From an uncultured Coprococcus sp. (GTDB lineage: Bacteria > Bacillota_A > Clostridia > Lachnospirales > Lachnospiraceae): a stretch of DNA of 20,771 nucleotides. The translations under genes and the position numbers were made by a program. The stretch is taken from NCBI GenBank assembly GCA_900767685.1, contig CAAGAB010000076.1, forward strand, positions 1-20,771, written 5' to 3'. A model generated the notes under the pieces. That model was not told the origin of the DNA and made no database searches. It worked only from the letters and a program-made list of their open reading frames with translations. Below are positions 1,983 through 17,411 of this stretch, in pieces (positions within the stretch are counted from its first letter, which is position 1; every line of letters begins with the position of its first letter).

Positions 1983-3707
1983 ATGAATAGTTTAGTTATC
2001 ATTCTTATCGCAGTAGTAGTTTTAGGTGCTGGCTATCTTGGTTATGGAAGATGGCTTGCAAAGAAGTGGGGCGTAGATTCAAATGCAAAGACCCCTGCAG
2101 TTGCAAACGAGGATGGAAAGGATTATGTACCATCGTCAAAGCTTACAGTATTCGCACATCAGTTTTCATCGATAGCAGGTGCAGGCCCTGTCCAGGGACC
2201 TATCATCGCAGCTATGTTCGGATGGGTGCCGGTTCTGCTCTGGCTGCTTGTCGGAGGCGTATTCTTCGGAGCAGTTCAGGATTTTGGTTCACTTTATGCA
2301 TCAGTTAAAAATGGTGGAAAGTCAATAGGACTTGTCATCGAGAAGTACATAGGCAAGGCTGGAAGAAGATTCTTCTCATTGTTCTGCTGGCTCTTTACAC
2401 TTCTTGTTATAGCAGCATTTACATCGATGGTTTCATCGACATTTAACGGTTTCACAGCAGGAGCTGATGGAGCTGTGACAAAGAACTTCAATGGTGCTGC
2501 AGCAGCAACAGTTTCCATGCTGTTCATCGTAGTTGCCATGGTATTCGGTGTGGTTATGAAGACATGCAAGAATATAAAGGAGTGGCTCAAAGCTATTGTA
2601 GCCATCGTCCTCATCGTTGCAATGTTTGCAGTTGGTATGAAACTTCCTTGGTACCTGACAGGTAACCAGTGGAATTACGTAATCATGGCTTACCTCTTCC
2701 TTGCATCAGTACTTCCAATGTGGTTACTCATGCAGCCAAGAGATTACATGACAACATTCATGCTGGTAGGCATGCTGATCGGTGCATTTGTCGGTGTCCT
2801 GGTCGGACATCCGGACATGAACCTGAATGCTTTCAACGGTTTCTCAGTTGTATCATCAACAGGTGTTAAGAGTTATCTGTTCCCAACACTGTTTGTAACG
2901 ATCGCCTGTGGTGCTGTTTCCGGTTTCCACAGCCTTGTTTCATCGGGAACATCATCAAAGACAGTAAAAAATGAAAAAGATATGCTTTTCGTAGGTTATG
3001 GAGCAATGATACTTGAGACACTCCTCGGAGTTATCTCACTTATAGTTGTTGGTGCTGTAGCAACAAAGGCTGGTACCGTGCCAGAAGGACTTACACCTTT
3101 CCAGATCTTCTCACAGGGTATCGCAGGATTCCTCGAGAAGTTTGGTCTTCCAAATTCAGTTGCAAATGTATTTATGACAATGTGTGTATCAGCACTTGCT
3201 CTTACATCACTTGACTCAGTTGCACGTATAGGACGTATGTCATTCCAGGAGCTCTTCATGGGAGACACAACAGACACATCCAAGATGCCTGCATGGCAGA
3301 AGGTGCTCACAAACAAGTATTTTGCAACAGTTATAACACTGTTCTTTGGATATCTTCTCTGCAAAGGTGGATATTCAAATGTATGGCCACTCTTCGGATC
3401 AGCAAACCAGATGCTTGCAGCCCTTGTACTTATAGGCGTAGCAGTATTCCTCAAGGCAACGAACAGAAAGCATGCAATGCTCTACCCACCTATGCTGATA
3501 ATGCTTGCCGTTACATTCACAGCTATCGTGCTCAATGTAATTGGCAATATTCAGAAGTTCCAGGCTGGTACAGCAACATTCCTTGTAGAGGGACTTCAGC
3601 TTATAGTTGCAGTATTCCTCATTGTGCTTGGTATCATAGTGGCTATCACATGTATCAAGAAGCTCGTTTTTATGAAGAAGGAGAACGCTGAGAAGGCAGA
3701 GGCTTAA
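1983..3707 (+). CDS. cstA: CstA-family carbon starvation transporter
   Basis: A 574-residue polytopic membrane protein. The CstA N-terminal signature is clear: 'FAHQFSSIAGAGPVQGP' at about residues 57-73, then 'FGWVPVLLWLLVGGVFFGAV' and QDFG. Further hydrophobic segments continue to the C-terminus, which ends in a short Lys/Glu-rich tail. CstA proteins take up peptides or small acids such as pyruvate under starvation. Which substrate applies here is not visible. The length is below that of E. coli CstA (about 700 residues). AAAGGAG stands ahead of the ATG. The gene lies about 130 nt behind a T-box terminator, so it is expected to be induced when one aminoacyl-tRNA is scarce, which argues for a role in amino-acid or peptide supply. 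It ends before the terminator at 3830-3874. Confidence 0.93.
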   Translation: MNSLVIILIAVVVLGAGYLGYGRWLAKKWGVDSNAKTPAVANEDGKDYVPSSKLTVFAHQFSSIAGAGPVQGPIIAAMFGWVPVLLWLLVGGVFFGAVQDFGSLYASVKNGGKSIGLVIEKYIGKAGRRFFSLFCWLFTLLVIAAFTSMVSSTFNGFTAGADGAVTKNFNGAAAATVSMLFIVVAMVFGVVMKTCKNIKEWLKAIVAIVLIVAMFAVGMKLPWYLTGNQWNYVIMAYLFLASVLPMWLLMQPRDYMTTFMLVGMLIGAFVGVLVGHPDMNLNAFNGFSVVSSTGVKSYLFPTLFVTIACGAVSGFHSLVSSGTSSKTVKNEKDMLFVGYGAMILETLLGVISLIVVGAVATKAGTVPEGLTPFQIFSQGIAGFLEKFGLPNSVANVFMTMCVSALALTSLDSVARIGRMSFQELFMGDTTDTSKMPAWQKVLTNKYFATVITLFFGYLLCKGGYSNVWPLFGSANQMLAALVLIGVAVFLKATNRKHAMLYPPMLIMLAVTFTAIVLNVIGNIQKFQAGTATFLVEGLQLIVAVFLIVLGIIVAITCIKKLVFMKKENAEKAEA

Positions 3708-3948: not shown

Positions 3949-3978
3949 TTGACACTAAACAATGGCGTGTTGTATTTT
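3949..3978 (+). promoter_or_regulatory. Sigma-A-type promoter of the surface-protein/MoxR operon
   Basis: A perfect -35 box TTGACA lies at 3949-3954. TATTTT at 3973-3978 (18-nt spacer), or the overlapping TGTATT with a shorter spacer, would be the -10 box. The start would fall near 3985, giving an untranslated leader of about 80 nt before the ATG at 4065. The site lies just behind the cstA terminator. It is the only clear promoter seen before the six-gene run. Confidence 0.65.
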
Positions 3979-4064: not shown

Positions 4065-7000
4065 ATGAAGACTTCAAGATTCAGACTCACGATATTCGCA
4101 GGAGTGATAGTTCTCATCCTGTCAGTTCTAATGATCAATTCGGCATCTATCAGTGCCAACGCCTCAGCAACAAATGTAAGTAGTGATGGAAAGTGGAAAT
4201 TCCAGATAATCAACTCGGACAAGTCGACAGCCAGACTTGTATGTTATACAAGAGAAAGCGGAAATGATGTAGCCATTCCGGGAACAGTTACAGGGAAAAA
4301 TGGCAAGAAATATACTGTGGTTGAGATAGGTATTCCAAACGAGTACGTGTTTAATTATGTGTGCAAGACTAAAACGCTGACCATACCGGCATCTGTGGTG
4401 AAGATAAACAGTGGTGCGTTTGGGAGTGACAAGATCACCAATGTGAGGTTCGAGAAGAATTCAAAGTGCAAATATATTGGCGAGTCGGCGTTCACTTCTG
4501 CTGGAGTATCCACCGTGGAATTTCCGGCTTCATTGGAGACGATAGGTGAGAGTGCGTTTTATGGCAATTGTGATACGTTGACCAGTGTGAAATTTGAGGA
4601 TAAGAGTAAGTGTAAAACTATAGGTGCTTCAGCATTTGGCTTTGCAACGAAGCTGAAAAGCATAAATATCCCGAAGTCCGTGACAAGCATAGGGGAAAAT
4701 GCTTTTGAACATTGTGAAGCACTCAAATTGCTGACATTTGAAGAGGGCAGCAGCTGCAAGACCATAGGAGATTCAGCGTTCAGAGGTACAGGAATCACCA
4801 GACTTAATCTTCCGGCCAGTATAGAGAGCATAGGAGAAAGTGCTTTTTTGGGATGTATCAGTCTGGTCAATATTGATATAGCATCCGATTCATTGACAGT
4901 TAGCAGTAAAGCATTTGCAACAAATGTAAAAACAAAATTGTTAAGAGATAGCTATGGAGATTTGTACGAGCGAATCATAGGAGAGCCATGTCCGTATACA
5001 GGGGTAATATATGTTAATAATAAGAATGTAAAGCAAGAATGTTTAGACCCCCAGATTGTAAATTCAGGCAGCGTCATAGTAAGAAATTACAATATAGAAA
5101 TGTATGTGAAGTCGGGAAGCACATGGGTGAAAAAAGTATCAAAGACAGTGGGTTACAACCAGTCGGTGGCATTATCGTCCATTGCACCAAATGCACCTAC
5201 AGGATTCAAATATGAATGGTATAAGGATAGCAGTTTCAGGGATTATGCCGGTGATACTATATGTAAGGCATCAAAGGATGGGGTCTACAGACTTTATGCT
5301 AATACAATAGAACATTTGTATACGATTATCTTTATGGCAAACGATGGAACACAGAACATGACAAAGAAAGAGGATATAAAGTATACAGAGTTTGTAGATC
5401 TTCCGGCAGGAAACGGACCTGCCAGAGACGGATTCTGGTTTAAGAGCTGGAATACAAAAGCGGATGGCACGGGAACAGCATACAAAGGAATGGTAAGCAG
5501 ACTTACCACAGAAAATGAGATAACGCTGTTTGCCGTTTATGAAAAAACGTATTCTGCTTGTTGGTATTCTTTAAGAAGCGGGATACATGGAAAGCTTGTA
5601 TATTCATACAATACATTTAGTACAGCGAGGGAAGGATATGAGCAGGTTGTGAATCCTCTAGATCAATATTTGGATGCGGATATTACATATAACTATACTG
5701 ATCCTGATGGCAATTATAAAGAGATAAAAAAGCATATATCCGACATAGCGACAGGGGATGGATGGATCAGAGTTGATTATTCGTCGGCAAACTATAAACA
5801 GATGTATCCTAATATAGACAAGCAGAGCGATTATGCCAGTGGTTCAAAATATGTAGCTTCCGAGGATTGTGGATTCCTGCCTAATCCGGTATATAAAGAT
5901 CTCACCATCAGATTCGATGGAAGCAGTGCAGAAAATACGATGGGGGATGTGACATGCGTGCGCGGAAAGCTTTACGCAGATAAGCTTTCAAACATGCTGA
6001 TAAAAGAAGCTTACGAGTTCGCGGGATGGACTGTGGAGCAGCTTGAAGGAACAGATAATCCAACTATTCTGATATCGGATTCAGATATTAGAGAGAACAG
6101 AATAAACGAGTCAAAAATATATGCACTGTATATGTTTGCTGATAAGGATCTGACAGTAACACTTAAGCCGGTCTGGAAAGCTCCAGAGACATATAATGTC
6201 CTATTCAAGTCCGGAGGAGGAACAGGTACTATGCAGATGATCACGTTGGAGTGCGGAAAGGTAAGCCGAATCCCGGATTGTACATATAAAAAGAAAGGTT
6301 ATTTGTTTGCAGGCTGGGCAATAGACGGTGAGAATACGGTAAAGTATGCGGATGGAGCTAGAATAAATAGAACAGCGCAGGAAGGCGATATAAGATTAAA
6401 GGCCATATGGAAGCAGGTCACATATAAGCTGGTGTACGATGCGAACGGCGGTCAGGGCTTTATGTCATCGGAGAATGTTGCAAGTGCATCCTTGCATAAA
6501 CTAAAGGACAGTACATATGAGAAGCTGGGTGCGAAGTTCAATGGATGGAATATGGAGAAAGATGGTTCCGGAAAATCCTACAGAGATGGAGCACAGATAC
6601 AGTATGAGCCAGAGAATGAAGGGGAGACCATTACCTTGTACGCAGACTGGTCTCCGGCTCCGGTTATAATATCATTTAATGCAAATGGCGGAACGGTTGC
6701 CAAGTCACAGAAGACTGTAGAGTTTGGAGAGACATGTGGCGTACTGCCTACGGCAAGAAGAGATGGGTATGATTTCCTTGGCTGGTTTACAAGACGAACA
6801 GGCGGAACACAGTACAGCAGTGGAACAGAGGTGGATTCTGACAGTGACATCACCCTGTATGCACATTGGAAAGAACGAAATTATACAGTTACATTCAACT
6901 CGAATGGCGGTAATGCAGTTCCGAATGGAGTCAGGACTATTATGGCGGGAAAATCTTTGGGAACTCTTCCTACTGCAAAGAAGGACAAGGCAACATTTGC

Positions 7001-7358
7001 GGGCTGGTATACTTCACCGACTGGTGGTTCTAGAGTGAGTGCGTCATTTAAGGTGAATAAGGATTGTACATTCTATGCACACTGGACAGATCTTACAAGG
7101 AAGGTCAGGGTGACATTTAATGTTCAGAAGATAAAGAATACAGCAGGCTATGAGGTACAGTATTCGACATCATCCGGATTCGGCGGAGCCGGAACGGTAT
7201 ACGGCAAGGTAAGCGGAGGCAACGTATATGTAACTCAGGTTGGAGGACTGAAATCCGGGACCAGATATTATTTTAGAGCGAGATCATATGCTATTAAGAA
7301 TGGAAGAAAGACATATGGCTCGTGGAGTAGTGTATCGAGTAAGACTACAAGTAAGTAA
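4065..7358 (+). CDS. Secreted BspA-like LRR / InlB B-repeat surface protein, paralog 1
   Basis: A 1097-residue secreted protein. It opens with a Sec signal peptide: a basic start, a hydrophobic stretch, and a likely cut after 'SISANASA' near residue 35. Residues about 84-287 are BspA-type leucine-rich repeats (LRR_5), seen as recurring 'IGESAF', 'IGASAF' and 'IGDSAF' cores followed by 'LxxLxIPxSVxxI' strands. From about 417 to 1010 come roughly six Listeria-Bacteroides/InlB B-type repeats ('YxVxFxxNGG ... GYxFxGW ... ITLYAxW'). They are interrupted near 497-612 by a stretch I do not recognise. Residues 1012-1097 resemble a clostridial fibronectin III domain ('GYEVQYSTSS', 'GTRYYFRARSYAIKNGRKTY'). 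There is no LPXTG, SLH or other known anchor. Families of this type bind host or matrix ligands; binding here is inference. It is the first gene of the run and is followed after 45 nt by its paralog. Confidence 0.9.
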   Translation: MKTSRFRLTIFAGVIVLILSVLMINSASISANASATNVSSDGKWKFQIINSDKSTARLVCYTRESGNDVAIPGTVTGKNGKKYTVVEIGIPNEYVFNYVCKTKTLTIPASVVKINSGAFGSDKITNVRFEKNSKCKYIGESAFTSAGVSTVEFPASLETIGESAFYGNCDTLTSVKFEDKSKCKTIGASAFGFATKLKSINIPKSVTSIGENAFEHCEALKLLTFEEGSSCKTIGDSAFRGTGITRLNLPASIESIGESAFLGCISLVNIDIASDSLTVSSKAFATNVKTKLLRDSYGDLYERIIGEPCPYTGVIYVNNKNVKQECLDPQIVNSGSVIVRNYNIEMYVKSGSTWVKKVSKTVGYNQSVALSSIAPNAPTGFKYEWYKDSSFRDYAGDTICKASKDGVYRLYANTIEHLYTIIFMANDGTQNMTKKEDIKYTEFVDLPAGNGPARDGFWFKSWNTKADGTGTAYKGMVSRLTTENEITLFAVYEKTYSACWYSLRSGIHGKLVYSYNTFSTAREGYEQVVNPLDQYLDADITYNYTDPDGNYKEIKKHISDIATGDGWIRVDYSSANYKQMYPNIDKQSDYASGSKYVASEDCGFLPNPVYKDLTIRFDGSSAENTMGDVTCVRGKLYADKLSNMLIKEAYEFAGWTVEQLEGTDNPTILISDSDIRENRINESKIYALYMFADKDLTVTLKPVWKAPETYNVLFKSGGGTGTMQMITLECGKVSRIPDCTYKKKGYLFAGWAIDGENTVKYADGARINRTAQEGDIRLKAIWKQVTYKLVYDANGGQGFMSSENVASASLHKLKDSTYEKLGAKFNGWNMEKDGSGKSYRDGAQIQYEPENEGETITLYADWSPAPVIISFNANGGTVAKSQKTVEFGETCGVLPTARRDGYDFLGWFTRRTGGTQYSSGTEVDSDSDITLYAHWKERNYTVTFNSNGGNAVPNGVRTIMAGKSLGTLPTAKKDKATFAGWYTSPTGGSRVSASFKVNKDCTFYAHWTDLTRKVRVTFNVQKIKNTAGYEVQYSTSSGFGGAGTVYGKVSGGNVYVTQVGGLKSGTRYYFRARSYAIKNGRKTYGSWSSVSSKTTSK
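5315..7094 (+). repeat. About six InlB B-type repeats encoded in paralog 1
   Basis: Units of about 70-80 residues share a start such as 'VTFNSNGG', a middle 'GYxFxGW' and an end 'ITLYAHW'. The second unit is degenerate. The copies have diverged at DNA level, so this is an old array. Confidence 0.8.
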
Positions 7359-7403
7359 ATCCATTGACTGATTATTGACTAATTTCATGAGGAGGAAAAA
7401 CAT

Positions 7404-10400
7404 ATGAAGGGAATGAAAAAGGTTTCACTGTGGTTATGTTCAGTGCTGGCAATGTTGGTCGTCATAGGGAGTATGACACTCAGAGTCAGTGCAGCCACAT
7501 ATAGCGGAGTGACATCAGATGATAAGAAATGGAAGGTGTGGATAAACACATCTACAGGAAGGTGCTCGATCAAGCCGGCAAAGGCAGGGGTATCCGGTGT
7601 CAGTTCGGGGGAGATCATAATACCGGCTAAAATCCAGTATAATAAGAAATCCTATGATGTAACAGGCATTGCACCGAGTGCATATTCAGGCAACACCAAA
7701 GTTACGAATGTCAATCTGGGCAAGGCAGTCAATCTTATCGTTATATCATCGAATTCGTTCAAGGAATGTACATCGTTGGAGCACATTAAGCTGATCGAAA
7801 ACACAAAGCTGACAACGATAGGAGACAGTGCGTTTTACGGCGACAAGAAATTGGTGGGAAACACTAAGAATCAGTTATATCTGCCGTCAAGGCTTAGCAA
7901 GATAGGCGTTTCGGCATTTGAAGGGTGTTCAAAGATAAAGGTGATAAATGCTGAGACATGCTCAGCGATCTCAACTATCGGTTCGAACGCTTTTAAGGGT
8001 ATAGCATCAACACATACCACCTATACATACAATGCATCAAAATATAATCTCTTTAAGAATACATATAAAATTGGCGGCACGGTAATTTCAAAAAATTATG
8101 TTGTAACATACAATAACAATACCTCACCTGCGGGCAAAACAACGCAGACCTTGAAGTATGGAAGTGAAAACAGCAAATTCCTTGCGAACACAGCATTTAG
8201 AAAAAACGGATACGCTATAAGCTCATGGAACACAAAGGCTGACGGAACCGGTACAAAGTATACCCCTGGGGCATCTATAAGCAAGATCACACCAACCGGT
8301 GCGATAAATCTTTATGCAAGATGGACTCCGATCACATACAAAGTAAGATTCAATGCGAACGGAGGTCAGGGAAGTCAGCCGGATCAGTCTATGACTTATG
8401 ACAATCAGAGGGGATTATCAATCAATATATTTACAAAAACCGGATATGTATTCGATGGATGGTCATTAACCGCAAATGGAAGCAAGACATATAATGATGG
8501 CGCTTCTGTAATAAATCTGTCATCGACATCCGGTGCGGTTGTAAATCTATATGCAGTGTGGACCCCTATACAGTACAGAATAAATTTCACAAGTACAAGA
8601 TGCTGGACAAATAAGAATGAAAATATACAAGCGTTAGTGACATATGATAAAACATATGTTACAGCATCCTATGATACAACCGTTACATTGCCACAGAATA
8701 TAGTAAGGTGTAAGGGGTATGAGTTCAAGGGATGGTACTATAATGGTTCATTAGTGACATCCATCAAAAATGCTACTACGGTAAACAATGGTACAGTTAC
8801 AGTTCAGGCTAAGATGGAGCCGATCAGATACAAAGTTATTGTTGACGGAAATCATGGTGTGGTGACGAATGGAGATGCGACAGGACCATCTGTTGTCTAT
8901 GGTGATGTGACATATGCTTCCACATTTAACCTGTCAGGAATCACATGCAGTAGAGAAGGATATACATTAGTGGGATGGGCGAAAAGTCCAAATGGGGATG
9001 CTGACTATGATATAGATGAGGCTATACTTAACCTTGCAGATGCAAACATAATAGTGAGTCTGTATGCGGTGTGGAAGCCTATAAATTATAATATAAAGTT
9101 TGATGCAAATGCGCCGGAGGGAATCGTGGCTGCGGGATATCAGCCAGATGTTCAGTGCGTATATGATAAAGAAAAAAAGCTTGGTTTGTGTAATTTCTCA
9201 TGCCCTGGATACAGATTCACCGGCTGGAATACCGAGCCGGATGGAAGTGGACAGCAGTATCAGGAGGGAGAACTTGTAAAGAACCTGATTGCAACACCTG
9301 AAACATATGTGCTTTACGCTCAGTGGACACCGGTAAAATACACAATAAGATTTGAGGTTGGAGAGGAAGGAGAAGAAACTCCACCAGATAGTATAGAATG
9401 TGAATATGGAAAGCCGTTTACGATACCTGAGTTTGATTCATCCAAGATGAACAGGGACGGATATCATTTTGTAAAGTGGTGCACAGAGGTGAATGAAAGT
9501 GATACGTCTAAGACATTTGAGGCGGGAGAGACATACGATATATCTCTTGCGACTGAGGATGGCGAGGAGGTTGTGCTGTATGGTATATGGGTATGTGGCA
9601 AATACATAATACATTTTGAGACCGGAACTCAAAGTACTGTTCGGGATAAAGAACTCACATATAGTGATAATGAGAGATTCAACATTTCGATTCCTGAGCC
9701 GGATTTGAGAAGTGGATATTATTTTGATTCATGGAATACAGCTGTTGATGGTTCAGGAAAGAGAGTAGATGACAAGATCAGACCGAAGGCTGATTATCAG
9801 GTACTTGCAACCGGAGTTCCAAGCGCAGATGATCCATATGTTACGGTGATCACATTATATGCCCAGTGGAAGCCGAACCAATACAAGGTTATGCTGGATA
9901 TAGTTACCAAAGAGGGCGTTGCATCACTGCCGGCAAATACAAGACAGGAAATACCAGTGTATTACGGAAGTACTTTCTATTCAAAGCTTCCGACTCCGAC
10001 GCTTAGAGGATACGATTTCAAGGGATGGAAGACTCCTAGTGGAACAAAGATAACTTCTGAGACAGAATACCGGAAGGCAGGAGATATAACCATCTATCCA
10101 ATATGGCAGATTAAAAAGTATAATATAACATTCGATTGTAAAGGCGGAACGCTGGGGGGAAAGAGCAGTGTTACAAAAACATACAACTGGAGAACGGAGC
10201 TTGGAAATCATGTGCCGGGTCTGTCACAACAACAGAAACGCGATAATAAAATTTTCCTTGGATGGTATTATCTGACTGGAAGCACAAAGCATTATGTGAC
10301 AGCGACCAGCAGAGTAGACAAGTCGCTAACTTTGTATGCGGATATCAGAAGACCTAACTACAATGTAAAATTTGACCTTGGCTATAGAGACAGAAGCGGC

Positions 10401-11141
10401 AGAAAGGTTGTCAAGACTGTCTCGTACGCATATAAAAGCACTCTTGGAAGTAAATCTGCAGTCGGTGCATTTGAGAAGAAATCGGGATATTTATTCGATG
10501 GATGGTATTACAAGAAAGGAAATAAGATCTATAAAGCAGTCCGCGGTGATAAGATCGTTGGATCACTGACCCTCACAGCACGCTGGAAGAAGCTTAAGGT
10601 AGATAAGAATGGATCTACACTTGACAATAGAAATAAAGTTGTGAAAGTGTCATGGAATAATGATGAAAAATTTGTCTCGCTTCAGTACAGATATGCGAAA
10701 AATACATCGGGATTAAAGAGTGCCAGAGTTTATGCTATAACTAAGAAGAGAGGAAAACCGCTCGGACAGGGACTTAAGGTTCCATATTCACTTGGTTATA
10801 TAGTAGTGCAGGTGCGTGCGAAGTATAAAGATTCAAAGGGACAATATACATATACTGATTGGGCAACGTTCTGTGATGTATGCAACAAGCGAGAGACTGT
10901 TACATTTAATCCAAATGGTGGAAAGATAGGTAATAGCACGTCGATCAGGACGGTTGCATTTGTAAAGGGAAAGACTCTTAAGACAAGCCCGTCATTCTGC
11001 AAGGGACAGCTTTATACTCCGAAGAGAAACGGATATAAATTTGACGGCTGGTACTACAAGAAGGCAGGAAGAGAGAGAAAGGTGGCCATCAATACAAGAC
11101 TTGCTGCCGGAACAAGGGTGTACGCAAAGTGGAAGAGATGA
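7404..11141 (+). CDS. Secreted BspA-like LRR / InlB B-repeat surface protein, paralog 2
   Basis: A 1245-residue secreted protein, sister to the gene before it. The signal peptide 'MKGMKKVSLWLCSVLAMLVV' runs to a likely cut after 'LRVSA' near residue 30. Residues about 81-201 are BspA-type LRRs ('TIGDSAFYG', 'KIGVSAFEGCSKI', 'TIGSNAFKGI'), a shorter block than in the paralog. From 232 to about 1063 run ten InlB B-type repeats, most ending 'LYAxWxP'. A weak FN3-like stretch (about 1064-1160) is followed by an eleventh repeat that closes the protein. No cell-wall anchor is visible. GGAGG at 7391-7395 stands 8 nt before the ATG. It is followed after 43 nt by moxR with no terminator seen, so co-transcription with the MoxR module is likely. 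Confidence 0.9.
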   Translation: MKGMKKVSLWLCSVLAMLVVIGSMTLRVSAATYSGVTSDDKKWKVWINTSTGRCSIKPAKAGVSGVSSGEIIIPAKIQYNKKSYDVTGIAPSAYSGNTKVTNVNLGKAVNLIVISSNSFKECTSLEHIKLIENTKLTTIGDSAFYGDKKLVGNTKNQLYLPSRLSKIGVSAFEGCSKIKVINAETCSAISTIGSNAFKGIASTHTTYTYNASKYNLFKNTYKIGGTVISKNYVVTYNNNTSPAGKTTQTLKYGSENSKFLANTAFRKNGYAISSWNTKADGTGTKYTPGASISKITPTGAINLYARWTPITYKVRFNANGGQGSQPDQSMTYDNQRGLSINIFTKTGYVFDGWSLTANGSKTYNDGASVINLSSTSGAVVNLYAVWTPIQYRINFTSTRCWTNKNENIQALVTYDKTYVTASYDTTVTLPQNIVRCKGYEFKGWYYNGSLVTSIKNATTVNNGTVTVQAKMEPIRYKVIVDGNHGVVTNGDATGPSVVYGDVTYASTFNLSGITCSREGYTLVGWAKSPNGDADYDIDEAILNLADANIIVSLYAVWKPINYNIKFDANAPEGIVAAGYQPDVQCVYDKEKKLGLCNFSCPGYRFTGWNTEPDGSGQQYQEGELVKNLIATPETYVLYAQWTPVKYTIRFEVGEEGEETPPDSIECEYGKPFTIPEFDSSKMNRDGYHFVKWCTEVNESDTSKTFEAGETYDISLATEDGEEVVLYGIWVCGKYIIHFETGTQSTVRDKELTYSDNERFNISIPEPDLRSGYYFDSWNTAVDGSGKRVDDKIRPKADYQVLATGVPSADDPYVTVITLYAQWKPNQYKVMLDIVTKEGVASLPANTRQEIPVYYGSTFYSKLPTPTLRGYDFKGWKTPSGTKITSETEYRKAGDITIYPIWQIKKYNITFDCKGGTLGGKSSVTKTYNWRTELGNHVPGLSQQQKRDNKIFLGWYYLTGSTKHYVTATSRVDKSLTLYADIRRPNYNVKFDLGYRDRSGRKVVKTVSYAYKSTLGSKSAVGAFEKKSGYLFDGWYYKKGNKIYKAVRGDKIVGSLTLTARWKKLKVDKNGSTLDNRNKVVKVSWNNDEKFVSLQYRYAKNTSGLKSARVYAITKKRGKPLGQGLKVPYSLGYIVVQVRAKYKDSKGQYTYTDWATFCDVCNKRETVTFNPNGGKIGNSTSIRTVAFVKGKTLKTSPSFCKGQLYTPKRNGYKFDGWYYKKAGRERKVAINTRLAAGTRVYAKWKR
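8098..10594 (+). repeat. Ten consecutive InlB B-type repeats encoded in paralog 2
   Basis: Ten units of about 75-90 residues follow each other directly. Most start with Tyr and a beta strand (YKVRF, YNIKF, YTIRF, YNITF) and carry a 'GYxFxGW' core. Units 6 and 7 are more acidic and longer than the others. An eleventh unit lies apart, after the FN3-like stretch. Confidence 0.85.
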
Positions 11142-11184
11142 CAGCCTGTAGACATATAGTATAACTTGAGATGGAGAAAAGAGA

Positions 11185-12129
11185 ATGAATCAGCAGATAC
11201 AACAGTTAATATTGGAGATAAAAAAGGCAATAAAGGGTAAAGATGAGGTTATATGCAAGGTTATAATGGTCATTCTTGCATCGGGACATATCCTCCTTGA
11301 AGACAATCCGGGACTTGGCAAGACAACGCTTGCCAAGTCACTGGCAAAGGCGATGAGTCTTAATGATGACAGAATACAGTTTACACCGGACACGATGCCA
11401 AGTGATATAGTGGGATATTCTATCCTTAACAAAGAGACAAACAAAATGCAGTTTACAAAGGGTCCTGTATTCACAAACCTTCTGCTGGCTGATGAGATCA
11501 ACAGAACTTCAAGCAAGACACAGGCTGCACTCCTTGAGGCTATGGCAGAGGGAACGGTTACGGCGGAGGGCAGCACATATAAGCTTCCGAATCCGTTTAT
11601 AACCATAGCGACTCAGAACCCTATTACATCCGGTGGAACACAGGCACTTCCTGATTCCCAGCTGGATAGATTTATGGTTAAGCTCAGTATGGGATATCCG
11701 GATGTTCAGAGCCAGATGGCTATGATCCTTGAAGATCATGGAGGTAATCCGATAGATCAGATAGTTCCTGTTATGAATCTTGAGCAGCTCGTAGCGATAA
11801 GAACACAGGTTGCACAGACATATATTTCACAGGAAGTTGCGGAATATATATCTCTTCTTGTTGATGCAACAAGACATCATGACAAGATAGAGTGTGGAAT
11901 AAGTCCGAGAGGAACAAAGGCATTTGCCAATCTTGCAAAAGCCTGCGCCTACATGAACGGAAGAAATTACATTATTCCAAGTGATGTTTCGGCAGTGATA
12001 TTCGATGTATTTATGCATAGACTTGTGCTTACACCTTCTGCCCGCAGGGAGAAAAATGCAGAAGAAAATATAGTTAAGGGTATATTGGGACAGGTAAAGC
12101 CTCCTGTGATAAATGGAGCGAGAAGATAG
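11185..12129 (+). CDS. MoxR-family AAA+ ATPase
   Basis: A 314-residue cytoplasmic AAA+ ATPase (AAA_3 type) of normal length. Walker A is 'LEDNPGLGKTT' (Lys46), Walker B is 'LLLADEINR' (Asp103, Glu104), sensor 1 is 'ATQNP' (142-146), and 'LPDSQLDRF' follows (155-163). The C-terminal lid contains 'GISPRGTKA'. MoxR proteins are thought to act as chaperone-like motors that mature or activate partner proteins, usually encoded next to DUF58 or VWA and transglutaminase-like genes. All but the VWA type are present downstream here. A GGAG site precedes the ATG. Confidence 0.95.
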   Translation: MNQQIQQLILEIKKAIKGKDEVICKVIMVILASGHILLEDNPGLGKTTLAKSLAKAMSLNDDRIQFTPDTMPSDIVGYSILNKETNKMQFTKGPVFTNLLLADEINRTSSKTQAALLEAMAEGTVTAEGSTYKLPNPFITIATQNPITSGGTQALPDSQLDRFMVKLSMGYPDVQSQMAMILEDHGGNPIDQIVPVMNLEQLVAIRTQVAQTYISQEVAEYISLLVDATRHHDKIECGISPRGTKAFANLAKACAYMNGRNYIIPSDVSAVIFDVFMHRLVLTPSARREKNAEENIVKGILGQVKPPVINGARR

Positions 12130-12172
12130 ACATACTTAGTTAAGCAACATGCTTTAGATAGGAGAATATGCG

Positions 12173-12793
12173 ATGAGAAAGAAGATATATGGTCTCCTTG
12201 TGGCCGGACTGATACTTTCTGTTGCAGCAACGGGCTGTGCCAGAGAAAAATCCAAATTTACAATGAAAAACAACCAGAATACAGAGGAGCGTATGAACGA
12301 TCAGAAGTTTGCTGATATGGCTGATAAAGAAAATGACAATACGGAGGATGATTCCGGAGAAAAGACTGAGGATCAGACCACAGAGGCAACCACGGAAATG
12401 ACGACACAGGCGACCACGGAGGCAACTACAGAGGCAACCACAGAAGCAACCACGGAGGCGACTACAGAGGCAACCACAGAGGCAACAACCCAGGCTGACA
12501 CAGAGAAAGCTACAGAGGATGACACACAGGTCAAGCCTGATGAACCAGATCAGAATCCACAGGACGAACCAGAGGTAATACCGGCTGACGGTGGCGATGA
12601 TCAGCCGGGCGGAGAAGATGGAATAGGCGTAGACGACGGTGGTTCAGGTGATGGTGGTAAAGACGGCAAAGGCGGAAAAGGCGGTTCTGGAGACGGCGGC
12701 TCCGGAGGCGATGGTTCAGGCGGACGTGGCATAGGCGGGGATGATGACACCCCTGGTGAGATAGATATTATAGACATAGAAGAAGTGGAGTAG
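12173..12793 (+). CDS. Lipoprotein with TTEA repeats and Gly/Asp-rich tail
   Basis: A 206-residue protein with a lipoprotein signal (hydrophobic 'LLVAGLILSVAATGC', lipid Cys22). A polar Asp/Glu/Asn-rich stretch follows, then ten TTEA-type units (residues 69-108), a Pro/Asp/Glu-rich linker, a Gly/Asp/Ser-rich stretch (about 139-193) and an acidic end 'IDIIDIEEVE'. It contains no folded domain that I recognise. The design suggests a membrane-anchored, elongated and strongly acidic stalk crossing the wall. It lies between moxR and the transglutaminase-like gene, and its stop is 3 nt from the next start. The next gene's ribosome site (GTGGAG) lies inside its last codons, so the two are probably translationally coupled. 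The function is unknown. Confidence 0.85.
   Translation: MRKKIYGLLVAGLILSVAATGCAREKSKFTMKNNQNTEERMNDQKFADMADKENDNTEDDSGEKTEDQTTEATTEMTTQATTEATTEATTEATTEATTEATTEATTQADTEKATEDDTQVKPDEPDQNPQDEPEVIPADGGDDQPGGEDGIGVDDGGSGDGGKDGKGGKGGSGDGGSGGDGSGGRGIGGDDDTPGEIDIIDIEEVE
12377..12496 (+). repeat. Ten 12-bp tandem repeats (TTEA coding)
   Basis: Ten units of 12 bp, each encoding TTEA, TTEM or TTQA, with synonymous third-base variation (ACC/ACA/ACT/ACG and GAG/GAA). Because the unit is a multiple of three, gain or loss of units changes stalk length without breaking the frame. Confidence 0.95.
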
Positions 12794-12796
12794 CTT

Positions 12797-15004
12797 ATGG
12801 GAAATGAGATTTCGGTTGACATAAGTGGAATAAAGGCTTCGTCAAAGAACACATGGATACTCAGAGGATTGATCACAGGCGTGGCTTCTCTCAGTATTCT
12901 TATGGGAATAGTATCCGGATTTAATATGAGTGCTGGTGTTGCTGCTGTGTTGCCGGGAGCGCTTGCTGGAGGTTTTTTATTCCAATTTTTGCTCAGAAAA
13001 AAGAAATCAGCGATCATTGGCTATGCGGCGTTTGTTGTGGTCGTGGCAGCGGTCTGTGGTGCAATGCTGAATCAGGTTGGAAATGGATTTGCGAAGATTG
13101 CGAATGACATCCTGACAACTGTAAACAAAAATATGGCTATGGCTAACCTGATGTTTGTCGTCGATGAGAGCACTGCAAAGACAGATGAGTTGATAACAGT
13201 GATGATTTTCTCTGTTGTCATAGCTGCTGTTGTAGCTTTGATCGTAAAGGCTAGACTTAATCTTCTAGCTGCATTGCTGGTATTTCTTGCAGTCACGCTT
13301 CCTATGATATACAAGGGAGAGGGTCACCCGGTATGGCTGATGACTGGTCTGGTGAGTGTGGTTCTTGTAATGTACGTGGGTAATGTCCACGGAAAGATAA
13401 CCGCAGACATGTATATACATCTTGGAATCTGTATGGCTGTTGTGGCGGGGGTAACTATGGCGGTGTATATGTTCATGACCTACAGTCCGCTTCAGATCGT
13501 TGATGATATCAAGACAAATATGCAGTATCATGGAGAGAATGTCGTATATGGAAAAAGTGATTATCCTGAGGGCAAATTTTCAAGATACAATGAAACAGTG
13601 ATAACAGGAGAAGAGAGACTTCAGATCAGGATGTCACAGCCAAAGCAGATGTATATGAGGGGATTCGTTGGATCAAAGTATACGGAAGACGGTTGGGAGG
13701 ACAGCGATCTCAAGATATATGGCGGAGACTACGAGGGTGTATTTGACTGGTTTTCAAGCAATGATTATTCACCGCTTACCAATCTTTCAGCTTATGTAAC
13801 ACAATCTGCGGAGCATGGCGGAGAGGCAAAAGAAAACAGTATATATGTTGAGGTATCCAACATATCGGCTAGAAGAAAATACCAGTATGTGCCGGAATGT
13901 GTCACATATGGCTCGCTTGAAAATCTGTACGCACCTAAGAATGATGTGAATTTCAGATCACAGGGACTTGGCCGCGAAAAGGATTATTTCTTTGATATGG
14001 TGGATGTAATGAACAATGATTATAAAGCCATATACGGAGAGACGTGGTATCAGGATCAGACGGGAGATAAGCTGTTTCATGACAGTGAGAATGTATATGG
14101 TACATTTGCGAGGACTTATTACGAAGATGTTCCAGATGAATTGAGGGCGTATTTTGACAGTCATGCTCCAAATGCCGGACAGAAGATGAATCCGTTCGAC
14201 GCAATTAAAGTTGTGCGTGATTATACAGCGGGAAATATGTCCTACAGTAACGATGCAGATGAATATTCAGGCGATGAAGATTTTGTAATAGAGATGCTCA
14301 GTGGGCACAAATCAGGATATTCAGCACATTTTGCAACGGCAGCTACAATGCTTTTCAGGTATTATGGTATACCGGCCAGATATGTGGAGGGATATCTTGT
14401 GAACCCTGAGGCTGGATCGGATGTGATATCTGTCACCGATGAAGATTCTCATGCGTGGGTTGAGATATATGCAGGTGGACTGGGTTTCATCCCGATAGAG
14501 GTGACACCCGGATATTATTCGGATGACGATGATACAGGTATGTCCAATGCAAACAGCGGAACAACACCGCAGACAATTCCACCTGAGCCGGAAGATCAGC
14601 AGGAGGATAACGGCGGCGGTGGCGGTTCGATGGAGACTGTACTACTTATCGGATATATAATTCTTGGACTTGTGGCGTTATTTGCAGTTGTTCTGATAAT
14701 AAGAAGAATAATCTGTGCGATTCTAAGAAGAAAGAGAATGAATGACAAGGATAGTGAAAAGTCTATTGCTGCGTCCGGAGATTATATGGCGGCGCTCATG
14801 GCTTACCAGAAGAAGAATCTGGAAGATAACATAAGTCCGCAGCTTCTGGAATTGTTACAGCAGTATAAGTTCAGCAGGTATATACCAACTGAAGAGGATG
14901 CACGGTTTGTGAGGTCATCGGCTCTTGATATGAAGAAGAAGGTTGTGCATGAAGAAAATATACTGAGCAGGATCAAAATGGGATTCTGGAATGCACTAAG
15001 GTAG
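12797..15004 (+). CDS. TgpA-like membrane protein with extracellular transglutaminase-like domain, catalytic Cys replaced by Ser
   Basis: A 735-residue membrane protein. Several membrane helices occupy residues about 20-240. A long extracellular part (about 245-610) ends in the transglutaminase core, then a polar 'EPEDQQEDNGGGGGS' linker, one helix (613-635) and a basic cytoplasmic tail. The core reads 'SGYSAHFATAATMLFRYYG' then 'IPARYVEGY', 'DSHAWVEIY' and 'FIPIEVTPGY'. In the family the residue after 'GY' is the catalytic Cys ('GYCxHFA'). Here it is Ser509, codon TCA at 14321-14323. His552 is kept, and Glu568 stands where the third residue is expected. The domain is therefore probably not a normal Cys enzyme and may bind rather than cut or crosslink peptides. 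The cytoplasmic tail resembles the short 'KFSRY..TEEDARF' ends of related proteins. It belongs to the MoxR-DUF58 module. Confidence 0.9.
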   Translation: MGNEISVDISGIKASSKNTWILRGLITGVASLSILMGIVSGFNMSAGVAAVLPGALAGGFLFQFLLRKKKSAIIGYAAFVVVVAAVCGAMLNQVGNGFAKIANDILTTVNKNMAMANLMFVVDESTAKTDELITVMIFSVVIAAVVALIVKARLNLLAALLVFLAVTLPMIYKGEGHPVWLMTGLVSVVLVMYVGNVHGKITADMYIHLGICMAVVAGVTMAVYMFMTYSPLQIVDDIKTNMQYHGENVVYGKSDYPEGKFSRYNETVITGEERLQIRMSQPKQMYMRGFVGSKYTEDGWEDSDLKIYGGDYEGVFDWFSSNDYSPLTNLSAYVTQSAEHGGEAKENSIYVEVSNISARRKYQYVPECVTYGSLENLYAPKNDVNFRSQGLGREKDYFFDMVDVMNNDYKAIYGETWYQDQTGDKLFHDSENVYGTFARTYYEDVPDELRAYFDSHAPNAGQKMNPFDAIKVVRDYTAGNMSYSNDADEYSGDEDFVIEMLSGHKSGYSAHFATAATMLFRYYGIPARYVEGYLVNPEAGSDVISVTDEDSHAWVEIYAGGLGFIPIEVTPGYYSDDDDTGMSNANSGTTPQTIPPEPEDQQEDNGGGGGSMETVLLIGYIILGLVALFAVVLIIRRIICAILRRKRMNDKDSEKSIAASGDYMAALMAYQKKNLEDNISPQLLELLQQYKFSRYIPTEEDARFVRSSALDMKKKVVHEENILSRIKMGFWNALR

Positions 15005-15017
15005 GAGAGGTATAGAT

Positions 15018-16067
15018 ATGAGAACTAAAATAGAATACATAATAATAGTTATACTGCTCCTTTTGGCGTACATATGGACAAATAATCTGTATACTTTATG
15101 GATTGCGGCAGCAGTCATTGGAGCCTGGCTCATATCAGCTATTATCAATCTGTTTGTAGCAAAGAAGATAAAGATCAGCTTTACGATACTGAATGAGCTT
15201 TCGGAGGACAGACAGCTCCAGTTGTGCGTTGAGAACAGTTCAGTATTTCCGGCACCTCATGTCAGGGTTGTGTTTGGATGTCAGAATGTTGTATTTGCAT
15301 CAGATTGTAATGCGACTGTGGATTGCTCGGTCGGGGCAAAAAAGACAAGCACCTACGAAGTCCCGATAGGAAGTAAATACTGTGGACGAATCAACATTGA
15401 TATATTCGGGATAAAGGTATATGACTGGATGGGAATTACCGCAAAGAAGCTGAGACCGCATGGTGACTGCTATTTCTATCAATATCCTGATGAATCGAAT
15501 GAAGTACTGCAGGAGTTTGAAGGCAATAAATCCAGTGACAGCGATGTCAATTATAAGCATATTAAGGGTAATGATGTTTCTGAGATACTGCAGATCAGAA
15601 AATATGTCATAGGTGACAGTATAAAGCAGATTCACTGGAAGATGTCTGCAAAATTTGATGATATTATGGTCAAAGAGTTTGACAGACCAAATGATATGTC
15701 AACCATGCTGGCATTTGATTATTCTTCTACGAATGATAAAATGGAGAATAAAAAGATCATAGAGGCTGTGGCAACGATTAGCAAGGAACTCATGCAGTCG
15801 GCGACTGGGCATACGGTGTACAGAATGAACACGGCGCAGACAAAGGTTGTTCATAGAGATGTATTTGAGTATTCTGAGTATGATGTAATGCTTCAGGAGC
15901 TTCTTGGAACGGTTGCCTCCGGTGGCGAGTACAGTGTGGTGGATCATATAATAAGGCACAATACTGTAGAGAGATTTGCAAAGGTCATATATATCACAAG
16001 TGCAAGAGACAGGGGCAGAGCGGCAGAACTTGACAGTCAGGAGAAGTGCTTTGTGATAGCTGTATAA
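15018..16067 (+). CDS. DUF58 domain membrane protein
   Basis: A 349-residue protein with two N-terminal membrane helices (about residues 7-47), a beta-rich region, and the DUF58 signature 'RKYVIGDSIKQIHWKMSAK' at residues 194-212. The C-terminal half resembles a von Willebrand A-like fold ('TMLAFDYSS' near 229-237). DUF58 proteins are the usual partners of MoxR ATPases and transglutaminase-like membrane proteins. GGAGAGG stands ahead of the ATG, 13 nt behind the preceding stop. It closes the tightly spaced six-gene run. In many genomes DUF58 lies between moxR and the transglutaminase gene; here it comes last. Confidence 0.93.
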   Translation: MRTKIEYIIIVILLLLAYIWTNNLYTLWIAAAVIGAWLISAIINLFVAKKIKISFTILNELSEDRQLQLCVENSSVFPAPHVRVVFGCQNVVFASDCNATVDCSVGAKKTSTYEVPIGSKYCGRINIDIFGIKVYDWMGITAKKLRPHGDCYFYQYPDESNEVLQEFEGNKSSDSDVNYKHIKGNDVSEILQIRKYVIGDSIKQIHWKMSAKFDDIMVKEFDRPNDMSTMLAFDYSSTNDKMENKKIIEAVATISKELMQSATGHTVYRMNTAQTKVVHRDVFEYSEYDVMLQELLGTVASGGEYSVVDHIIRHNTVERFAKVIYITSARDRGRAAELDSQEKCFVIAV

Positions 16068-16222: not shown

Positions 16223-16393
16223 ATGAGAAGAACTTCTGTGTTTTACAGGGGTATGAAGAGCCATAGTATGTTGTCAATTCCGGGTATTATATGTATAATC
16301 CTAGTTGTATTATATGTTCTGATGATACTTTACATGCACAGCTTCATACCGCTAATTTGTAAAGCGCATGAAGAAGAAATATTGATATATTAG
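16223..16393 (+). CDS. Possible 56-residue single-span membrane peptide
   Basis: An ATG-started frame encodes 56 residues. It has a basic N-terminus (MRRTSVFYRGMK), one strongly hydrophobic stretch (about residues 18-45, including 'IICIILVVLYVLMILYM') and an acidic end (HEEEILIY). The layout of basic residues, helix and acidic residues is typical of small membrane proteins and unusual for chance reading of a gap. Against it, the ribosome site is poor (ACGGAG abuts the ATG) and an in-frame stop lies at 16214. Internal ATGs at 16253 and 16268 are no better placed. It could be a real small gene at the end of the MoxR operon, a remnant, or chance. Confidence 0.33.
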   Translation: MRRTSVFYRGMKSHSMLSIPGIICIILVVLYVLMILYMHSFIPLICKAHEEEILIY

Positions 16394-16535: not shown

Positions 16536-17411
16536 ATGATACAGGATATAGAACCACAGAGGTTTAATAATCAATATAGTAACAGGAGAGAACCAGAGGA
16601 TCACGATATGGTTCTCTCTTTTTCTGAGAAAATGATATTTGCAAAGGTGATGGACGATGAGAACCGGCTAGTGTTTATGACGTACGGTGAACTGAAGAAA
16701 ATAACTGGATGCGATAGGAAAATAGGAGATCTGGTTTATCTCTTTTCAATAGATGATACCGCATATTTTATGTGGAATGGAGATAACAGACTTGCTGCCC
16801 CGGGCTATGAATACCGAAGCATGTATAAGACAAGGGCTTGCTATCCGAAGACTGCGGTTCTTGCGGCGGCGACAGGCTGGCATCTGTCGCTTTGGTACAG
16901 GACCAACAGGTTCTGTGGTGCCTGTGGAGAGAGAACTGTTCATGATGAGAAAGAGCGGATGCTCAGATGTCCGTCATGCGGCAGGCTGATATTTCCAGTC
17001 ATAGCTCCTGCTGTCATAGTGGGCGTGATCGACGGCGACAGGATCATACTTACCACATATGCGGGCAGGGAGTACAAGAGATATGCCCTGATAGCGGGAT
17101 TTACCGAGATAGGGGAGAGCGCTGAGCAGACCGTCAGACGGGAGGTCATGGAGGAGGTCGGCATCAGCGTTAAGAATATCACTTATTACAAGTCACAGCC
17201 ATGGGGCTATGACAGCAATCTTCTCATGGGTTATTTCTGTCAGGCAGACATACCAGAGGGCGGTGACGGACATCTGACCATAGACAGACAGGAGCTTGCA
17301 ACCGGAGAGTGGGTGAACCGTGATGATATTCCAGACTATCCGGAGCACCTGAGCCTCACACATGAGATGATGGTATACTTTAAAGAGCACGGACAGGAAG
17401 TGTTTAAGTGA
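16536..17411 (+). CDS. nudC: NAD(+) diphosphatase, NudC-type Nudix hydrolase
   Basis: A 291-residue cytoplasmic enzyme expected to split NAD(H) to NMN(H) and AMP, and possibly to remove NAD caps from RNA. A four-Cys zinc ribbon (CGAC ... CPSC, residues 127-148) comes before the Nudix box 'GFTEIGESAEQT...REVMEEVGI' (188-210), which fits GX5EX7REUXEEXGU. The NudC-specific motif after it reads 'SQPWGYDSN' (from 220), where the E. coli form is SQPWPFPxS. An ATG at 16521 gives five more residues. I prefer 16536 because GGAGA at 16523 is well placed and the protein then begins 'MIQDIEPQRFNNQY', like clostridial NudC proteins as I recall them. A third ATG at 16608 also has a site (AGAGGA) but lies in a hairpin. 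No linked NAD gene is visible. Confidence 0.9.
   Translation: MIQDIEPQRFNNQYSNRREPEDHDMVLSFSEKMIFAKVMDDENRLVFMTYGELKKITGCDRKIGDLVYLFSIDDTAYFMWNGDNRLAAPGYEYRSMYKTRACYPKTAVLAAATGWHLSLWYRTNRFCGACGERTVHDEKERMLRCPSCGRLIFPVIAPAVIVGVIDGDRIILTTYAGREYKRYALIAGFTEIGESAEQTVRREVMEEVGISVKNITYYKSQPWGYDSNLLMGYFCQADIPEGGDGHLTIDRQELATGEWVNRDDIPDYPEHLSLTHEMMVYFKEHGQEVFK
16586..16623 (+). terminator. Terminator-like hairpin inside the 5' end of nudC
   Basis: A perfect 10-bp stem (16586-16595 with 16609-16618), GAGAGAACCA against TGGTTCTCTC, with a 13-nt loop, is followed by TTTTT at 16619-16623. It covers residues about 18-29 of NudC and hides the internal ATG at 16608. It has the form of an intrinsic terminator or attenuator although it lies in coding sequence. 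Whether it works is unknown. Confidence 0.5.

Follow-up and report, generated by a model that had tools for sequence, protein, structure and literature searches.

What might a row of six genes do that joins two giant exported repeat proteins to a MoxR ATPase, a lipoprotein, a transglutaminase-like (TG) membrane protein and a DUF58 protein? The question is raised by a 20,771-nucleotide (nt) stretch of DNA from an uncultured Coprococcus sp. (contig CAAGAB010000076.1), referred to here as the window, which carries this row on the forward (+) strand from 4065 to 16067. Based on our analysis, this row is real and conserved, and is a variant of the MoxR-DUF58-TgpA kind of cluster. Among relatives of the row, exported repeat partners are strongly associated with loci in which the TG protein lacks its catalytic cysteine (Cys). 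We favor, at slightly less than even confidence, a reading of the six genes as one conserved surface system: a membrane module driven by ATP, with its pseudo-transglutaminase as the dock for exported repeat proteins.

Repeat partners and the loss of the active-site cysteine

The 121 loci collected (80 from a genome scan, 40 further stretches and the window) were picked by similarity to the window TG, and the set is therefore enriched for its kind. Short loci (L081-L112 and L133-L144) were excluded, since most of these places were also covered by longer stretches. Removal of duplicates (L157, L159, L160 and L161) and of loci with no called TG (L032, L040, L129 and L150) left 113 TG proteins for analysis; L032 and L040 do encode a TG by tblastn, though open reading frame (ORF) calling gave none. 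At the position of the catalytic Cys, 45 of the 113 proteins retain Cys and the other 68 are Cys-less, with serine (Ser, 37), aspartate (Asp, 19), alanine (Ala, 10) or glutamate (Glu, 2). The active-site histidine (His) is kept in 112 of the 113.

A co-directional neighbor of at least 900 amino acids (aa) stands beside the trio of MoxR, DUF58 and TG genes at 27 of 57 scorable Cys-less loci versus 1 of 32 scorable Cys loci, while 24 of the 113 loci could be given no state, the trio being incompletely recognized or the neighbor missing at a contig end. The large neighbor of the lone Cys locus, L153, is a GGDEF/TPR protein. Relatives of the leucine-rich repeat (LRR) partners or of the L077-type beta-propeller/immunoglobulin (Ig) giants occur anywhere in the stretch at 43 of 68 Cys-less loci versus 0 of 45 Cys loci, a comparison in which all queries came from Cys-less loci, such that another giant type beside a Cys-bearing TG would be missed. 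Among the 43, the match at L041 is weak (E 3e-8) and on the opposite strand, and export was checked for only part of the matches. Both the size criterion and an all-against-all clustering are free of this query bias; in the clustering, LRR giants form a cluster present in 12 Cys-less and no Cys loci, and the L077-type cluster is found in 23 and none, respectively. ORF numbers per locus are comparable (median 13 for Cys-less and 14 for Cys loci). Any p-value for the partner association is inflated by the kinship of the loci.

Apart from that of the window, 11 of the 13 large upstream neighbors contain LRR_5, the exceptions being those of L152 and L153. An LRR gene lies immediately before MoxR in 16 loci, namely these 11, L035 (LRR_5), L014 and L117 (both LRR_4), L113 and the window, and in eight (L008, L019, L021, L035, L115, L120, L121 and L124) the LRR and MoxR genes overlap by 4 nt. 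LRR_5 is encoded directly upstream in 8 of 34 full trios of one genome subset, versus a yardstick of at most about 0.6% of genes, taken from 453 LRR_5 stretches in 20 genomes (about 70.5 megabases) at one gene per kilobase. The sequence-only reading of the window had supposed that the module holds repeat proteins with no anchor of their own. This may not be general, as a simple hydropathy scan finds an N-terminal hydrophobic segment in 14 of the 16 LRR partners and, on visual inspection, some of these segments could be signal anchors that stay uncleaved and need no other anchor.

A quick tree of the TG proteins has one branch, fully supported in the Shimodaira-Hasegawa-like approximate likelihood ratio test (SH-aLRT), that sets 44 of the 45 Cys rows, together with Cys-less L034, apart from the rest, and a tree uniting all Cys-less rows is at least as likely in the approximately unbiased test (p-AU 0.57). 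These topologies suggest that Cys was probably lost once in an ancient event, the residue drifting afterwards, and as the loss looks like a single event, the partner link is best described as a property of the clade. On the tree, the presence of a large neighbor switches 10 times or more, which implies that partners come and go. Genome G268 carries both a Cys-less trio, whose stretch includes an L077-type relative, and a Cys-bearing trio (L130 and L158), offering a natural comparison within one genome.

The six genes of the window and their relatives

All six ORFs proposed from the sequence were confirmed. They are co-directional, start with ATG, are separated by gaps of 45, 43, 43, 3 and 13 nt, and each start is preceded by a purine-rich, Shine-Dalgarno-like stretch. 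The first two genes, at 4065..7358 and 7404..11141, encode exported proteins of 1097 aa (P0001) and 1245 aa (P0002), both combining BspA-type LRRs (LRR_5) with internalin B (InlB) B-repeats (Flg_new) above the curated Pfam cut-offs. P0001 scores 155 bits for LRR_5 and 197 bits for Flg_new in five stretches, P0002 scores 58 bits for LRR_5 and 234 bits for Flg_new in ten stretches, and the two share 25% identity across 949 columns. Each has a single N-terminal hydrophobic segment, at residues 6-24 in P0001, and the LPxTG sortase motif is absent from both. When Pfam was checked for FN3, the sole match was a sub-threshold Pur_ac_phosph_N at the C-terminus of P0001. Relatives of P0001 (63% identity) and P0002 (64%) come from database entries that both give 15173 as the longest contig, and this shared value suggests, short of proof, that the two adjoin in another species as well.

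The row is found beyond one strain, and the link between repeat proteins and the MoxR module drawn in the sequence-only reading is supported by comparison: a second genome has the same order, LRR genes precede MoxR elsewhere and partners are confined to Cys-less loci. Given about 50 near-identical TG proteins in the database (98-100%) and others at 87, 84, 76, 71, 64, 45 and 43% identity, the TG gene is not restricted to a single strain. In genome G300, locus L113 encodes on one strand an LRR_5 plus Flg_new protein (656 aa), MoxR (316), a lipoprotein (187), a TG (759) and DUF58 (349), which is the gene order of the window, followed by a Wzy_C-like protein and a secreted-looking protein. The L113 TG is about 30% identical to the window TG and has Ser at the Cys position. 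Among 97 full trios, window included, MoxR-lipoprotein-TG-DUF58 occurs only in the window and L113, the remainder reading MoxR-DUF58-TG, in a few cases with an ORF split or inserted. G300 was the only window-type genome in our draws (1030 bits versus 304.6 for the runner-up) and its two congeners gave no match at E 1e-20; the type therefore looks rare and accessory within the sample. The window falls in a supported clade of its own with L113, L014, L117 and L033, in which, by sight, an anchored low-complexity stalk protein is present in all five and an LRR protein just before MoxR in four.

The tg gene (12797..15004; 735 aa) encodes a TgpA-like membrane protein with an N-terminal helical membrane region, an outer domain at about 252-576, one further transmembrane helix and a tail. 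The TgpA periplasmic fold between transmembrane segments is present. Transglut_core matches at 70 bits (Pfam). Ser509 occupies the column of the catalytic Cys in the TgpA motif GFCAHYA, bearing out the earlier designation of a pseudo-transglutaminase, and His552 and Glu568 complete a site that looks enzymatically dead. Glu in place of Asp is no mark of death, being found in 37 of the 45 Cys-bearing relatives as well.

The moxR gene (11185..12129; 314 aa), 43 nt after the end of the P0002 gene, encodes a MoxR-family AAA+ ATPase with AAA_3 (191.3 bits) and AAA_lid_2 (69.7 bits), both above the Pfam cut-off, a P-loop (PGLGKTT) and a Walker B motif (LLLADEINR); its nearest solved structure is 2r44. 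The lipoprotein gene (12173..12793; 206 aa) specifies a stalk of acidic, threonine (Thr)-rich and glycine-rich low complexity, with counterparts in L113 and L033. A 12-nt tandem repeat of 9.2 copies at 12377-12486 encodes the Thr/Glu/Ala run of this stalk and possibly varies in length among strains. The duf58 gene (15018..16067; 349 aa) encodes a membrane protein with a DUF58 profile at 37.9 bits (Pfam cut-off 23.4) and consists of a transmembrane hairpin, a beta-sandwich at residues 49-156 and a C-terminal alpha/beta domain. The closest fold to the beta-sandwich (15162-15485 in the window) is the C-terminal barrel of animal transglutaminases, and 1 of 36 DUF58 members has a weak Transglut_C match. 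At E 0.1, none of the 36 matched the VWA families; in a separate fold search, the beta-sandwich took up the results.

On transcription, the earlier claim of a row with one front promoter and no internal terminator fared unevenly. No terminator-like site is seen in the five intergenic gaps; the two on the + strand lie at 13265, within the TG gene, and at 16595, past the operon and within the next ORF, and such sites are not above chance (5 found versus 7.7 expected). A promoter-like site precedes gene 1 (3949..3978, + strand, TTGACA-18-TATTTT), which is weak evidence, and because promoter-like sites are frequent here (56 in 14.5 kilobases versus 37 expected, many internal), a single front promoter is not provable from the sequence. 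The 453-nt gap downstream of the DUF58 gene contains a promoter-like 11/12 site at 16271-16299, making it plausible that the transcription unit ends at 16067.

The scanned ORFs upstream of 4065 encode an ABC ATPase fragment, EamA and a CstA relative, with no kinase gene among them (a 77-aa ORF at 1486 lay outside the scan). A T-box leader at 1531-1823 (94.7 bits) precedes the CstA-family gene at 1983-3707 and was the sole match in the Rfam search. Phage records gave no match to the MoxR-DUF58 stretch, and three pattern matches to DUF58 in viral contigs were rejected, none being a relative.

How the row may work

In the docking system that we favor, MoxR would act inside the cell on the DUF58 protein, which would be bound to the TG protein within the membrane. 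The outer TG domain would no longer cut or cross-link, while keeping its fold and the old active-site His, and would instead offer the LRR/InlB proteins encoded in the operon a place to dock. Remodeling on the inner side, driven by ATP, might then load the docked surface proteins, release them or switch them, and the lipoprotein would be a flexible stalk spacing or holding the repeat proteins through the wall. The row would thus operate like the bifidobacterial PFNA operon, LRR/InlB proteins replacing its FN3 protein.

Several points weigh against this view. As Cys was apparently lost a single time, Cys loss and partners cannot be weighed as independent correlates; an independent-pairs test was uninformative. 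In 25 of the 68 Cys-less loci neither partner family is found within the stretch, although two of these, L014 and L117, have partners with LRR_4. Some of the genomes are rich in LRR_5 proteins (up to 57 stretches), the kinase of relatives is missing from the window, and the VWA domain, basis of the supposed MoxR contact, did not emerge in the DUF58 searches.

It is doubtful, though conceivable, that repeat proteins and MoxR module share nothing more than their regulation, being switched on together with no mutual action while the module maintains the envelope in general, a task that the tgpA cluster may have in Pseudomonas. There, we take PA2875 and PA2874 to be the MoxR and DUF58 proteins. 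According to passages of PMC3507681, PA2875, PA2874 and tgpA are co-transcribed in P. aeruginosa and tgpA is essential, which is consistent with such a role, as is the frequency of LRR_5 genes in many of the genomes studied here. However, co-regulation alone sits poorly with partner clusters confined to Cys-less loci, with a change of TG chemistry in the same clade that has the partners, and with the recurrent 4-nt overlap of LRR and MoxR genes.

An unlikely alternative is a sensor complex, with the exported repeat protein as receptor, the pseudo-transglutaminase and DUF58 as the pair that relays the state of this receptor inward, and MoxR, joined by a kinase in other loci, setting the signal threshold. 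Of the 12 LRR_5 loci with the usual order, 10 (L004, L008, L019, L021, L035, L115, L120, L121, L124 and L128) have a kinase-cluster gene immediately upstream of the LRR gene, and in the other two the stretch ends there. The two of these that were scanned, L008 and L124, are hybrid histidine kinases of the HisKA-HATPase-receiver type, and L043 has the same; near the trio, a hybrid kinase is likewise encoded in the loci from Adlercreutzia, Gordonibacter and Slackia (L035, L040 and L043). In passages of PMC8430577, the Pkb2 kinase of PFNA phosphorylates MoxR, which further suits a sensor. Against it, no kinase or regulator is seen in the window operon or beside that of L113, and the window would therefore need an unlinked signaling partner.

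That the TG is alive, with Ser509-His552-Glu568 giving it serine hydrolase or transamidase activity to trim or link the repeat proteins, is highly improbable: Ser, His and Glu are invariant in a 20-row window-type alignment and the Glu, as noted, is shared with Cys-bearing relatives, but the Cys-less position is also filled by Asp, Ala or Glu, with Ala in LRR-linked loci L021, L035, L115, L121, L124, L128 and L146 and Asp in L120, and Ala at least is incapable of being a nucleophile.

If docking is the function, the Cys-less TgpA-like clade could be a large family of machines for docking across the membrane, to which our searches attached no name, with a pseudo-transglutaminase outside and a DUF58-coupled MoxR inside that capture giant exported repeat proteins and actively mount, exchange or read them out. 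Its interchangeable outputs would be LRR giants with a histidine kinase, LRR/InlB proteins with a lipoprotein stalk as in the window, and beta-propeller/Ig giants with an energy-coupling factor (ECF)-type transporter. We put this forward as speculation that may well prove wrong.

Elsewhere among the Cys-less loci there are CbiQ and ABC components, DUF4430 and alpha/alpha-toroid proteins, and beta-propeller/Ig giants. In L010, L009, L003, L041 and about 30 of their Cys-less relatives, CbiQ-like and ABC components accompany the trio beside the giants. The DUF4430 protein of L010 belongs to a cluster in 32 Cys-less and no Cys loci, and the Prenyltrans alpha/alpha-toroid protein of L003 to one in 29 and none. 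Toroid and DUF4430 proteins together are reminiscent of the two halves of transcobalamin, and these loci may be a cofactor-capture system.

Comparison with known systems

The literature passages drawn on come from PMC8430577, PMC10688814, PMC12067865, PMC4858521 and PMC3507681. Among these passages and the titles listed in full-text searches, which leave most subscription papers outside, there was no account of LRR/InlB proteins with a MoxR module or of the Cys-less clade. The BspA-like and InlB-repeat surface proteins share the LRR_5 and Flg_new repeats with the window proteins, which differ in lacking LPxTG and in standing in a row with a MoxR/TG/DUF58 module. Erythrocyte protein 4.2 is an inactive transglutaminase that serves as a scaffold. 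Like the window TG it is a transglutaminase fold at a membrane, but it belongs to another branch of the superfamily, is an animal protein and has no MoxR; in a Foldseek search with the TG it appeared low in the list (E 0.16 and 0.67).

In RavA-ViaA and similar systems, a MoxR AAA+ ATPase has a cognate operon partner (passages of PMC12067865). The window also pairs MoxR with an operon partner, here a DUF58 protein in place of a VWA protein, with the VWA models matching none of the 36 members and the C-terminal fold not searched alone. The P. aeruginosa TgpA domain was assayed for transglutaminase activity and keeps its triad (passages of PMC3507681), whereas the window TG has Ser for Cys and adjoining repeat proteins.

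PFNA of Bifidobacterium has the order pkb2-fn3-aaa-atp-duf58-tgm, and its FN3 protein is described as an adhesion and cytokine-binding protein (passages of PMC8430577 and PMC10688814). As in the window, the gene of a giant exported protein immediately precedes moxR, and the row includes DUF58 and a transglutaminase-like membrane protein. The window differs in having two LRR/InlB repeat proteins in place of FN3, no kinase, an added lipoprotein, and the order moxR-lipoprotein-TG-DUF58 rather than moxR-duf58-tgm. The rows of relatives in which a kinase-cluster gene, an LRR giant and MoxR precede DUF58 and a Cys-less TG parallel the kinase-FN3-MoxR-DUF58-TGM order of PFNA. The best reading is that PFNA is the closest known system and that the window row would work like it without being a member. 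A dead enzyme part next to an exported repeat protein would narrow the role of MoxR-DUF58-transglutaminase clusters to handling, rather than cross-linking, surface proteins, and would provide candidate genes for how such commensals display repeat proteins that may meet the host or neighbors, carrying the concept of the PFNA operon beyond bifidobacteria to other lineages.
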